A stretch of 39,621 nucleotides of DNA from Planctomycetia bacterium (GCA_005772855.1 SXIK01000233.1:1-39621); one strand, 5' to 3'. Counted from the stretch's first letter, positions 13,146-17,410 are shown. The notes: generated from the letters alone by a model not told the origin. A program made the numbers and translations.

Positions 13146-14495
13146 TTGTTGAGATCTACCCTGGCTCTGACGCGTCGGGCTTTGCTTCTGCTGGGCTGGT
13201 CTTGCCTCTGTGGCTGCGGCGGCGGCAGCGGGAGCTCGGGGTTTGGATCCGCCAAAGATAGCAGCGACAGGCCGAGCGGCGGATTTGGCTCGGCCCTGGC
13301 ATCGCCGGGCGATCTCAATGGTGACGGGCGGACCGAGCTGGCCGTCGGTATCCCCGGTTTTGACGGAAAATCGGAGGATCAAGGCGCTGTTGACATCTTG
13401 TTTCTCCAGGGGGATGGCAGCTCCGAGTCGCGTTTCCGCATAGCTTCCAGGGAGAACGGCTTCAGCGGCGACCTCGATCGGTTCGACTCCTTCGGTAAGG
13501 GGTTGGCCTTCCTGGGCGATCTTGACGGCGACTCTGTCAATGACCTGGCGGTTGGCGCGCCAGGCGATGATGACGGCAAACTGAGGGCGGGCGCTCTCTG
13601 GATCCTTCTCTTGAGCGCCGAAGGTAGCGTCAAGGCTCATCAGAAAATTAGCGCAATTAATGGTGGATTCTCTGGTGAACTGGATTCGAAGGACGAGTTT
13701 GGATCCTCGGTGGCTGTGGTGGGAGACCTGGACGGCGATGGCTTCTCGGAGGTTGCCGTGGGCGCTCCCGGGGACGACGACGGCGGTGACGGTCGCGGGG
13801 TTGTTTGGCTCCTGAGTCTCAACCCCAACGGAAGTGTACGGCAGACACGCAAGATCAGTTCGCTCGAGGGCGGATTTATCGGGCCGATCGAAAACAAGGA
13901 CCACTTCGGGGGCAGTTTGGCGGCCCTTGGGGACCTGGACCAGGACGGCGTGCCCGACCTCGCGGTCGGCGCTCCACTTGACGGGGAGGGCGGTTATGCC
14001 AGTGGCGCTGTGTGGATCCTGTTTCTGAAGGCCGACGGCACGGTCAAGGCACAGCAGAAAATCAACTCGGCACAGGGCGGCCTTTCCACTGACATTCACG
14101 GACGTGACCAGTTCGGCGCTGCACTGAAGGCGATCGGCGATTTGAATGGTGACGGAGTTCCAGAGCTTGCGGTGGGGGCGCCGGGTACCGATGGCAAGCT
14201 CGAGCGTGGCGCCCTCTGGGTCGTTTTCCTCGAGCGAGACGGCGCGGCATCCTCGAGTGTCAAGGTTCAGAATGGAGATCCGGGCCTCGTCGATGAGCTC
14301 GGACCCCTGGACCGGTTCGGCTCGGCGGTCTCGGACCTGGGTGATCTCGACCTTGACGGGCTGAGCGATGTCGCTGTGGGAACTGACCAGGTGCGATCTC
14401 GGGGGCGAAATTCGGGCGACGTGTGGTTCCTTTTCCTGCGCGAGGACGGCACGCTTCGCTCCTCACGCCTCATGCACTCAGCGTCACGGCGTTGA
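13146..14495 (+). CDS. FG-GAP repeat lipoprotein
   Basis: A 449-residue exported protein with six FG-GAP repeats, which fold as an integrin-alpha-type beta-propeller and bind calcium through DxDGDG loops. Repeats show as FGSALASPGDLNGDGRTELAVG, FGKGLAFLGDLDGDSVNDLAVGAPGDDD, FGSSVAVVGDLDGDG and so on. The N-terminus has a hydrophobic stretch ending in SCLCGCGGGSG, which looks like a lipobox with Cys as lipid acceptor, so it is probably membrane-anchored. The start is TTG 13146-13148, preceded by GAAGGAGCGCG at suitable spacing. It diverges from the operon at 12919; the 226-bp gap between them probably holds both promoters. The role is unknown; surface binding is likely from the fold. Confidence 0.85.
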   Translation: MLRSTLALTRRALLLLGWSCLCGCGGGSGSSGFGSAKDSSDRPSGGFGSALASPGDLNGDGRTELAVGIPGFDGKSEDQGAVDILFLQGDGSSESRFRIASRENGFSGDLDRFDSFGKGLAFLGDLDGDSVNDLAVGAPGDDDGKLRAGALWILLLSAEGSVKAHQKISAINGGFSGELDSKDEFGSSVAVVGDLDGDGFSEVAVGAPGDDDGGDGRGVVWLLSLNPNGSVRQTRKISSLEGGFIGPIENKDHFGGSLAALGDLDQDGVPDLAVGAPLDGEGGYASGAVWILFLKADGTVKAQQKINSAQGGLSTDIHGRDQFGAALKAIGDLNGDGVPELAVGAPGTDGKLERGALWVVFLERDGAASSSVKVQNGDPGLVDELGPLDRFGSAVSDLGDLDLDGLSDVAVGTDQVRSRGRNSGDVWFLFLREDGTLRSSRLMHSASRR

Positions 14496-14585
14496 AGAGC
14501 TCCGCCAGTTCTTGTCAAGTTTCCGGACGGCAAGGACGAGGCCAGAGTGTTGGGGCGCACCCGTAGCCTCACTCCACGGCACATT

Positions 14586-14610
14586 ACAGGAACGGTTTGA
14601 CCATTCCTGT
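14586..14610 (+). terminator. Hairpin after the FG-GAP gene (weak terminator candidate)
   Basis: ACAGGAA, then GGT, pairs with ACC, then TTCCTGT across one mismatch and a 3-nt loop. No T-run follows, so it may block RNA decay rather than terminate transcription. It lies between the FG-GAP gene and the coiled-coil gene. Confidence 0.35.
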
Positions 14611-14669
14611 ATTCCGAGGCATTCTCCAGAGGAACTTTGGATGTAATTGGGCATCTCTCAAGGTAGATA

Positions 14670-16223
14670 GTGACTCAAAAGGTCTACAAGTTTGAGCCCG
14701 GGCAGTGCGTTTGCCTGCTGGGCGATCTGGGCGCCGGATCCCAGAAGGCCAACGTCCTGAAGCTGAGCGGGACGGAGATGGTCCTCGAGGCGACTGTGCC
14801 CCTGAGGGCAGAGCAGTTCGTCTACACGACGATCAAGCTCGCCGATGGGCCATCGCTTGCCCTCAGTGGACTTGTCGTCACTGCCGTTTCCGGCGGGATC
14901 CTTGTCCAGTGGACGCACTCAAACCCGCTAGAAACAGATCGCATTGATGCGTTGCTGAACGAGTACATGAAGGCTCGTCCGGAGACAGCCGTTGCGCAGC
15001 CTGCATCCTCGCCAGTGCCACCTCTGCCCGCCGCCGCCGAGCTTGCCTTCGTGGGCACGGTGAACAGGACGAAGCCACACATCACAAGGGCTCCGACCCC
15101 TCCGGCTGTGGAGTTGGCCGCGCGGGAAGCCGAGTCTTCCCCGGGGGGTGCCACGGATCTGGACGCCAAGCTCCGCAAGAAGTCCAAGACGGTTCGCTCC
15201 GCCGACCTTGCCTCGCGGGTGAACACCGTTCAGGTCGTCAATATGAGCACGATCCGCGACCTCGTAAAGGAGGCCGTGGATGAATCAATCGCACTGCACG
15301 CGTCCAGCATGTCCGAGTCGGACAAGAAGCGCCTTCTCGAGGAGGCCGAAGCCTCCTTCGCTGAGCGACTCTCGCTTTTCAAGGCGGAGAAGTCAGGCCT
15401 CGAGGTGCAAATCAATACGCTTGAGGAGAGCCTCCAGAAAGCCCAGGCCCTGCTCAACGAGGAGCGGGGCAAGGTCCTGCTTGCCAGCCAGTTCACGGTC
15501 TCCGATGCCGGAATGATGGAGCTCGAGCAGCGCTTGGGCCGGCTCCTCGAGCATGCGCTGCATACGGGCAAGGTCGGCAAGGAGCTTGAGGACCAATTGC
15601 GGGCTGTTGTCTCAAGGCTCCTCGATGACGAGCGGGACAAGATTCGAGACCAGGCACAGCAGGCACAGAATGACAGAATCAATCTCCTGGAGCGCAAGGT
15701 GCAGCGCCTTGCTTCGTCGCTCGAATGTGCCGAGTCGGAGCGTGATCGGGCCAGGGAACGAGCCGTCGCGCTCGAAGCCTCAGGCGGCATGTCTCTTCAC
15801 AATGTGATGAAGGCAGGTCTCGATGCGACTGATCCACAACGCAACCGGAAGTTGGGCCTCCTGAAGGAGATCTTCAGGCTCAATCAGGAGATTCGCCAGA
15901 AGCTGATTGAGGAAGGCCGCCTGCCGCGGCGTGCGGCCGTTTCTGACGACGGGGAGCCCGTGAGGCAACCCGCCTTGTCGCCCGAGCAGGTTCGGGTGGA
16001 GGAGGCTCGCATTGCGGAGGACCTTGGCATCATCAGAACTTTGCCGGTGGGCTCGCGGTCGGAGGATTCCTCGGCTCCGGAAAACGAGGAGTCGCCAGCG
16101 GCAGCCTGCGTGCTCGTGTCGGGCACCGACACAGACCCGGACGACACGCTCTGGGAGCCTTCCGGGAAGTTGACACTGGATTCGCAGCCACCAAAATTTA
16201 AACGACTGGGAAGCGGGCAATAG
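14670..16223 (+). CDS. Coiled-coil protein with PilZ-like N-terminal domain, partner of the MamK-like actin
   Basis: A 517-residue cytoplasmic protein with no signal peptide or membrane segment. Residues 1 to about 105 form a beta-rich domain (KFEPGQCVCLLGDLG, VLEATVPLRAEQFVYTTIKL, SGLVVTAVSGGILVQW) that resembles a PilZ barrel but lacks the RxxxR and (D/N)xSxxG cyclic-di-GMP motifs. A Pro/Ala linker follows. Residues about 195-390 are a long heptad-rich coiled coil (KKRLLEEAEASFAERLSLF, LERKVQRLASSLECAESERD). The C-terminus is acidic and flexible. The GTG start at 14670-14672 follows AAGGTAG. The stop is 45 bp before the MamK-like gene, on the same strand, with one terminator after the pair. 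I infer a filament adaptor or regulator, by context only. Confidence 0.75.
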   Translation: MTQKVYKFEPGQCVCLLGDLGAGSQKANVLKLSGTEMVLEATVPLRAEQFVYTTIKLADGPSLALSGLVVTAVSGGILVQWTHSNPLETDRIDALLNEYMKARPETAVAQPASSPVPPLPAAAELAFVGTVNRTKPHITRAPTPPAVELAAREAESSPGGATDLDAKLRKKSKTVRSADLASRVNTVQVVNMSTIRDLVKEAVDESIALHASSMSESDKKRLLEEAEASFAERLSLFKAEKSGLEVQINTLEESLQKAQALLNEERGKVLLASQFTVSDAGMMELEQRLGRLLEHALHTGKVGKELEDQLRAVVSRLLDDERDKIRDQAQQAQNDRINLLERKVQRLASSLECAESERDRARERAVALEASGGMSLHNVMKAGLDATDPQRNRKLGLLKEIFRLNQEIRQKLIEEGRLPRRAAVSDDGEPVRQPALSPEQVRVEEARIAEDLGIIRTLPVGSRSEDSSAPENEESPAAACVLVSGTDTDPDDTLWEPSGKLTLDSQPPKFKRLGSGQ

Positions 16224-16268
16224 CTCCCGCGCAAAGGGTTATGAGTCTCTTGAAAGAGGAGTTCGAGA

Positions 16269-17330
16269 ATGTCCGAAACAATTTTCTTGGGTGTTGACCT
16301 CGGAACGAGCCGAACGTCGATCACAACGTCGACGGGCGTTCGCGAGACCGTCTGGTCCTATGTGGGTTACCCGAAGGACCACGTAGCCAGAAAGAAGTTT
16401 GGCGGCCGTGACATCATTTACGGCAGGGAGGCGGTCGAGAACCGCATGGCCCTCGACCTGGTCCGTCCGCTTGCCGGCGGCTCGATCAAGGCGCGTGATG
16501 GCCGGGACACGGCCGAGATGAAGCGAGCGTTGAAGGACCTGGTGCAGTATACGGTGAGCCTCGCCAAGGCTCCTGCCGGTAGCACCATCTTTGCCGTGAT
16601 CGGCGCGCCCGCCGAGGCGAGCGTCGAGGGCCGGGCGACGTTGCTCGAGGCCGCCGCAAGCTGCATCGACAGTGTCATTATCTGCTCGGAGCCATTCTCG
16701 GTGGCCTACGGCCTCGACTTCCTGGACGATACGCTCGTGATTGATGTTGGCGCCGGTACCACCGACCTGTGTCGCGTCCACGGCACCATGCCCGGACCGG
16801 ACGACCAGCGCACGCATGAGGTGGCGGGCGACACTATTGACCAGACGCTTGCGCACCTGATCAAGCGAAAGTTCCCCGAGGCCCAGTTTTCGATCCATAT
16901 GGTGACGAGCTTCAAGGAGAAGTTCTCGAGCGTCTCGAAGAACTTGGACCGTGCTGTCGTGACGATGCCGGTGGCCGGCAAGCCGCAGCCGTTTGATATC
17001 ACAGACTGTGTCTTCGAGGCCTGCTACTCGATTGTGCCTCCGACTGTGAAGGCCCTACAGGACTTGATCGCTACTTATGACCCCGAGTTCCAGTCCAAGA
17101 TGAGAAATAATGTTCTCCTGGGCGGTGGGGGTAGCCAGATCTCCGGGCTGGGCCGTGCGATCGAGGAGGCCCTTGGCGAATATGGGGGTGGCAAGGTGAT
17201 GACGGTGGAGGAACCACAGTACGCCGGCTCCAATGGCGCATTGAAGATCGCGCTCGACATGCCCGGGGAGTATTGGAAGGAGTTTGCGAACAGGGCCGAG
17301 GTCGTTGCTGCCGTGCCTTCGAAGGCTTGA
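16269..17330 (+). CDS. MamK-like actin-family filament protein
   Basis: A 353-residue actin/MreB/FtsA-superfamily ATPase. It is closer to magnetosome MamK than to MreB: the phrases VGYPKDHVARKKFGGRDIIYG, AVIGAPAEAS, ICSEPFSVAYGLD, VIDVGAGTTDLCRVHGTMPGPDDQ and a C-terminal MPGEYWKEF all have direct MamK counterparts. Phosphate 1 loop GVDLGTSRT (8-16), phosphate 2 loop IDVGAGTTDL (158-167) and adenosine loop GGGGSQI (285-291) are intact. E141 and D159 correspond to the MamK hydrolysis residues E143 and D161. The ATG at 16269 follows GAGGAG at good spacing. It forms an operon with the coiled-coil gene upstream and is followed by a strong terminator. No other magnetosome gene is in the window, so its cargo is unknown. 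Confidence 0.9.
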   Translation: MSETIFLGVDLGTSRTSITTSTGVRETVWSYVGYPKDHVARKKFGGRDIIYGREAVENRMALDLVRPLAGGSIKARDGRDTAEMKRALKDLVQYTVSLAKAPAGSTIFAVIGAPAEASVEGRATLLEAAASCIDSVIICSEPFSVAYGLDFLDDTLVIDVGAGTTDLCRVHGTMPGPDDQRTHEVAGDTIDQTLAHLIKRKFPEAQFSIHMVTSFKEKFSSVSKNLDRAVVTMPVAGKPQPFDITDCVFEACYSIVPPTVKALQDLIATYDPEFQSKMRNNVLLGGGGSQISGLGRAIEEALGEYGGGKVMTVEEPQYAGSNGALKIALDMPGEYWKEFANRAEVVAAVPSKA

Positions 17331-17371
17331 CAGCCTGCAGGCAGAATTGGTCTTGACGGAACTGGGATTAA

Positions 17372-17410
17372 CGCAGGCCGCAGCGTAAGTTGCGGCCCGC
17401 GGTTTTTTTT
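17372..17410 (+). terminator. Strong intrinsic terminator of the coiled-coil/MamK-like operon
   Basis: CGC-A-GGCCGCA pairs with TGCGGCC-C-GCG around an 8-nt loop with one mismatch. The stem is followed by G and eight T (17403-17410). It stands 42 bp after the stop of the MamK-like gene and separates that operon from the heme protein gene. Confidence 0.85.

Follow-up and report, generated by a model that had tools for sequence, protein, structure and literature searches.

A MamK-like actin gene and the gene directly upstream of it form a conserved pair in a 39,621-nt stretch of DNA (the window) from a Planctomycetia bacterium (GCA_005772855.1, SXIK01000233.1). Judged by sequence, such pairs occur across Planctomycetota as well as in some Verrucomicrobiota and one bacterial virus; the bacteria are not known for magnetic organelles. 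We consider it probable that the pair is a MamK-type actin filament together with a dedicated adaptor protein. More tentatively, the data suggest that actins of the MamK branch form a widespread system outside magnetosomes, in which one short filament-binding helix would be carried on exchangeable heads (PilZ, receiver, FimV/HubP, or none) and of which phages would hold a minimal form.

The coordinates of the pair and its features are given in Table 1. Both open reading frames (ORFs) and the short gap between them, as placed by the initial annotation, were recovered by ORF calls on the sequence. A ribosome-binding site, GAAAGAGGAG, precedes the actin ATG. Same-strand gaps between partner and actin in other loci range from -54 to 198 bp. 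The annotation also described a single strong terminator behind the actin gene; a hairpin and T run are indeed present, but singleness and strength hang on the 9-bp stem. Three terminator-like sites were observed against 2.8 in shuffled sequence, so the count is unremarkable, and this hairpin is the best of the three. The sole promoter-like match (16170-16197) lies inside the partner gene and may be a separate promoter for the actin alone. The upstream neighbour is a same-strand gene with FG-GAP repeats that ends at 14495, and a cytochrome-c/3-keto-disaccharide hydrolase gene follows beyond the hairpin. A 27-bp near-perfect palindrome is located at 14585-14611, 58 bp upstream of the partner start. 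It has no second copy in the genome, and a role as a regulon site was rejected because of this single occurrence. The flank upstream of the pair contains no direct repeats or iteron array.

Table 1. Features of the actin-partner locus, in window coordinates.
Feature	Position	Strand	Remarks
Partner gene	14670-16223	+	GTG start, 517 aa; homologues adjoin MamK-like actins
Predicted PilZ-fold domain, aa 1-102	14670-14975	+	AlphaFold and Foldseek; no RxxxR, degenerate [DN]xSxxG
Disordered linker, aa 106-164	14985-15161	+	pLDDT below 50
N-terminal conserved motif, aa 164-211 (with SADLASRVNTVQVVNMSTIRDLVKEAVDESI)	15159-15302	+	Alignment A2
Predicted coiled-coil helices, aa 216-267 and 304-370	15315-15779	+	AlphaFold model
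C-terminal helix NRKLGLLKEIFRLNQEIRQKLIEE, about aa 391-415	15840-15914	+	Candidate filament-binding element, N405 invariant
Acidic tail motif DPDDTLWEP, aa 489-497	16134-16160	+	Homologues
Intergenic gap, 45 bp	16224-16268	+	Holds actin ribosome-binding site
MamK-like actin gene	16269-17330	+	ATG start, 353 aa; catalytic E141, D159
Probable intrinsic terminator	17376-17405	+	9-bp stem, then T run

The second ORF of the pair is, on several lines of sequence comparison, a MamK-like actin. It is 38% identical to AMB-1 MamK over the fold, and its closest solved structures are MamK of AMB-1 (E 2e-74) and, next, BeeR (1e-38). Against the NCBIfam MamK model (NF040964) it scores 377.8 bits, slightly below the cut-off of 400, and some relatives of the same clade reach 400-403 bits. 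The BeeR model (NF053558; 195.8 bits, cut-off 530) and the MreB model (52.4 bits, cut-off 293) both score it below their thresholds, the FtsA and ParM models give weak scores, and Pfam returns MreB_Mbl and other actins with modest scores. All four phrases that had been picked out as MamK-specific (VGYPKD, SEPFSVAYGLD, GTMPGPDDQ and EYW) are found in the protein, and the two MamK hydrolysis residues are kept in the alignment as had been claimed, with E143 corresponding to E141 and D161 to D159. MamK A278 aligns with S276. The N-terminus begins a few residues ahead of the fold and is without the 30-50 aa extension of BeeR.

Phylogenetic trees were built with FastTree (94 sequences) and IQ-TREE (a reduced set), rooted on the host MreB and with FtsA and ParM left out. 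All MamK-like proteins grouped with AMB-1 MamK, the one genuine MamK serving as reference, apart from BeeR and MreB (SH-aLRT 93.9, UFBoot 100), and the window actin fell into a separate group of MamK-like proteins (100/100). Since the tree holds one genuine MamK, it does not settle the branching order of magnetosome MamK and the window's group; a plasmid search for further genuine MamK sequences came back empty. The protein lies outside MreB and far from the MreB clade, in keeping with the MamK affiliation first proposed. The host encodes three other actins, namely a BeeR-like protein (L002), a distant third actin (L003) and MreB (L004, 425.6 bits).

The partner protein as a whole has no match in family profile searches. 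Its predicted layout is a PilZ-fold head, a disordered linker, a coiled coil, a conserved C-terminal helix and an acidic tail. AlphaFold models the N-terminal beta domain with its C-terminal helix (aa 1-105) at a pLDDT of 89.9, and Foldseek matched the head to the PilZ domain of Alg44 among solved structures (E 3e-5, probability 1.00, TM 0.75), further to MrkH and YcgR, and weakly to PDB 4fou. Pfam PilZ (PF07238) was matched by 14 of 31 homologous domains (best 4.4e-7), the window's own domain not being one of these. The modelling thus assigns a PilZ fold to the N-terminal domain, and it agrees with the earlier description of a beta domain of PilZ outline without ligand motifs: RxxxR and a canonical [DN]xSxxG are both missing, the second site reading LSGTEM. 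With RxxxR missing and the second motif degenerate, the window partner is unlikely to bind c-di-GMP. Some homologues keep ExSxxG at this site.

Linker motifs of the form TRR[VI]x[KR]P occur in many homologues, up to three in long ones, and are missing from the window partner. In the N-terminal conserved motif, residues V187, V189, L190, L198 and V203 are near-invariant (alignment A2). The coiled coil announced in the initial annotation corresponds to the long AlphaFold helices listed in Table 1. The tail is disordered, and its motif is present in one or two copies (DPDDxPWEP form) in long-tailed homologues. The family varies at both ends, and some homologues are headless. In one partner (L067:2496-5945) the coiled coil is preceded by two receiver domains.

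Conservation of the gene pair was assessed in 90 distinct loci, collected at >300 bits with the window actin and with duplicate sequences removed; partners were recognised with an iterated profile within 200 bp of the actin. A recognisable partner adjoins the actin in 75 of these loci, so that the side-by-side arrangement, on which the idea of a functional unit had been staked, is strongly conserved in related genomes. The partner is upstream in 67 loci, downstream in 7 and divergent in 1 (L023). The upstream figure comprises 65 loci scored as such, plus L018 and L070, which were first scored as downstream because their actin ORF starts had been called too early. All seven downstream partners are found in Verrucomicrobiota-type loci (L083-L093), and these count as about one event since they are near-identical relatives. 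No accepted partner or helix motif was found near the actins of L028, L031, L098 and L099; L112 and L026 are cut loci.

The association also holds when searched from the partner side. Run against 59 genomes, a profile of the partner C-terminus (its last 80 conserved residues) gave 29 strong matches (E<1e-13), of which 28 adjoin a MamK-like actin. Weak matches (E 0.001-0.01) in three genomes (G011, G026, G027) are partners of second MamK-like actins. The actin search was positive in 43 of the same 59 genomes, distant MreB-type matches included, and the partner search in 25. One strong partner-family match (L170:4581-5279, on G003:C30) lies away from any actin found there. Across 246 Planctomycetota genomes, most MamK scores either exceed ~300 bits or lie near 90 bits, the latter being MreB; roughly a third of the genomes have a MamK-like actin above 300 bits, and 65 exceed the curated MamK cut-off. 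Clustering of neighbouring ORFs in Planctomycetota loci returned only the actin and the partner as recurrent genes. A larger conserved operon was rejected, the other big neighbour clusters being antisense or shadow frames of the actin and the partner.

Nearly all partners have in common a helix motif, phi-phi-x2-phi-x3-N-x2-phi-[R/K], with an asparagine (N405 in the window) that is invariant in the partner C-terminal alignments A2 and A5. Occurrences were counted with the regular expression phi-phi-x2-phi-x3-N-x2-phi-[RKQHS]; a stricter first form failed to detect many true partners and was relaxed before the count. The expression is present in 77 of 84 partners; truncated ORFs and close variants are among the other seven. 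The remaining ORFs of these loci provide the background, with 36 occurrences in 568,711 residues, or 6.3 per 100,000 aa. Because the expression was shaped on partners, the partner count is partly built in, and the independent evidence comes from non-homologous neighbours and viral proteins. Same-strand neighbours without other detectable homology contain the motif in L102, L103 (twice), L105 (twice), L107 (twice), L122 and L127. It occurs twice in an ORF of L120 that overlaps an over-extended actin frame, and a near match, LADLLTANLELK, was seen by eye in L121. We propose that the C-terminal helix is the filament-binding element. In another subgroup, several MamK-like actins (L103, L105, L120 and L131) are followed by a small recombinase-like gene, recognised from its translation only.

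In the Verrucomicrobiota loci (L083-L093) a first FimV-type gene precedes the actin, the partner follows the actin immediately, and a second FimV-type gene comes after the partner, as in L084:4155-10707 and L093:4114-10721, where FimV/HubP-type genes flank the pair. FimV-type genes were scored in L083, L084 and L093, the second one in L084 and L093 only. The encoded proteins score 57-70 bits against FimV_core (TIGR03505, cut-off 43.45), have hydrophobic segments, and contain the helix motif in their predicted cytoplasmic part (LKLRLLIEIRDFNRVVQ; TVLEIMVGIRDFNRRMR). These flanking proteins thus share a C-terminal helix motif with the window partner, but the latter is without a FimV core: TIGR03505 is not among its NCBIfam matches. 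No FimV_core match above the cut-off was found in the Planctomycetota genomes searched, which makes the link to a polar landmark a feature of Verrucomicrobiota.

Copies of the actin are also found on viral contigs. A phage contig in IMG/VR (L132:3113-5044) encodes a MamK-like actin that is 67% identical to the window actin and falls within its tree group; it adjoins a terminase large subunit gene, with a major head protein gene nearby. The similarity of the 161-aa ORF upstream of it to the partner profile is confined to the C-terminal part (E 6e-13). On a 273-kb contig (L135:7694-9008), a 101-aa ORF ends one base before the actin start and contains the helix element (E 1e-4). Both mini-partners retain just the coil and the helix motif. 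On a 114-kb contig (L136:5920-8993), a 130-aa ORF located 1.7 kb upstream of the actin has a visual likeness to these that is not significant. The actins of L135 and L136 are MamK-like and deeper-branching. The viral status of these two contigs is the classification of the database, and a terminase of the one family tried was absent from both. A search of an annotated phage collection found no relative.

Taken together, the data are consistent with the following model. The actin would polymerise with ATP into a MamK-like filament, as its homology and its retained catalytic residues suggest. The conserved linkage and the motif point to a partner that would bind this filament through its C-terminal helix (KLGLLKEIFRLNQEIR), and whose coil would make it a dimer. 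The PilZ-fold head, which has no c-di-GMP motifs here, would make contact with another protein and so connect the filament with a cargo or a signal. This head appears to be exchangeable: the window's group has a PilZ domain, L067 has two receiver domains, and other lineages and the viral mini-partners have none; the motif-bearing FimV/HubP membrane proteins next to the pair may be the Verrucomicrobiota variant of it. By analogy, the pair would act as MamK and MamJ do, keeping a protein complex in place or spreading it along the cell. That it positions an organelle or complex, as the initial annotation suggested, is an inference; no cargo gene recurs beside the pair. Flagella are an unlikely cargo, the host genome having no match to FliF, and the same applies to bacterial microcompartments, with no shell protein found in the host genome. 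Magnetosomes are doubtful as cargo.

Our favoured guess for the cargo, held with low confidence, is type IV pili or some other machinery of the envelope, with the PilZ domain as the link. Pilus biogenesis involves some PilZ proteins (PDB 4fou, the weak fold match), motif-bearing FimV/HubP-type proteins flank the Verrucomicrobiota pair, and PilT-family ATPases are present in 59 of 59 genomes, FliF being missing from the host. However, PilT is found whether or not a genome has the pair, so it is uninformative here and the distribution does not favour pili. Pilus genes also do not recur beside the pair, and the Planctomycetota searched gave no FimV_core. The membrane-anchored appearance of the same FimV/HubP-type proteins would suit a cell-shape or envelope cytoskeleton, in which the actin has an MreB-like role and the partner is a curvature or membrane adaptor. 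We regard this as unlikely, since the genome already has an MreB, the actin is far from MreB in the tree, and cell-wall genes do not recur beside the pair.

A further alternative is plasmid-like DNA segregation of the ParM/ParR or AlpC/AlpA type, where the partner would be a DNA-binding adaptor and the filament would move DNA. An actin with a small adjacent adaptor is the usual layout of such systems, some of the pairs described here are on viral contigs, and a prophage AlpC/AlpA moves phage DNA (PMC4446434, PMC5539076); the palindrome upstream of the partner could also be read in this way, although it is single in the genome. This explanation is nevertheless improbable: the partner is without a recognised DNA-binding domain, no iteron array surrounds the operon, the actin is on a different branch and groups with MamK (in a tree without ParM), and PilZ, receiver and FimV heads better fit signalling or envelope targets. 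Least probable, and in our view very unlikely, is that the actin is a true magnetosome MamK of an unrecognised magnetotactic planctomycete. Its affiliation in the tree and the magnetosome gene clusters reported in Planctomycetota (PMC7602337) would agree with this, but actins above 300 bits in about one third of the 246 genomes extend far beyond the known magnetotactic lineages, and the NCBIfam MamK cut-off is not reached. The initial annotation's remark that no magnetosome gene is nearby was checked with one magnetosome family, magnetochrome, whose search across the genome gave no match; it was a weak search, in which the controls likewise went without a match.

The reading as a MamK-type filament with its own adaptor invites comparison with known systems. 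The 38% identity, the retained catalytic E143 and D161 and the sister position in the tree are shared with MamK (NF040964), whereas the score of 377.8 bits, below 400, and the possession of its own conserved adaptor gene set the window actin apart. The partner may be likened to MamJ by role, as an adaptor encoded beside the filament gene. The mamJ gene adjoins the filament gene mamK, and we know of no PilZ head in MamJ. PMC10653835 describes MamJ as the adaptor between MamK and magnetosomes and suggests that MamK adaptors (MamJ-like interactors) have been overlooked outside magnetospirilla. Relatives of MamK in non-magnetotactic bacteria are known (PMC11929497; for planctobacteria, PMC7203096), with no function given. 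No description of the partner family or of the helix motif was found in the literature searched, most subscription journals being outside it. The partner gene and the shared helix offer a handle on these MamK relatives without a function and on the overlooked adaptors. The motif predicts which 20-odd residues bind the filament and could be sought in magnetosome clusters, and the head domain could be used to fish for cargo. If the model is true, positioning of magnetosomes would be a special case of what a more general module of actin plus adaptor does.

BeeR (PDB 8r2n) is likewise a MamK-related actin and comes from bacteria without magnetosomes (PMC11929497). It is 32% identical to the window actin, which is without the N-terminal extension, and the tree separates the two. 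The host's own BeeR-like actin is L002 and not the window actin; this second actin (L002:1489-3068, on contig C49 of the same genome) has a receiver-domain gene directly upstream.
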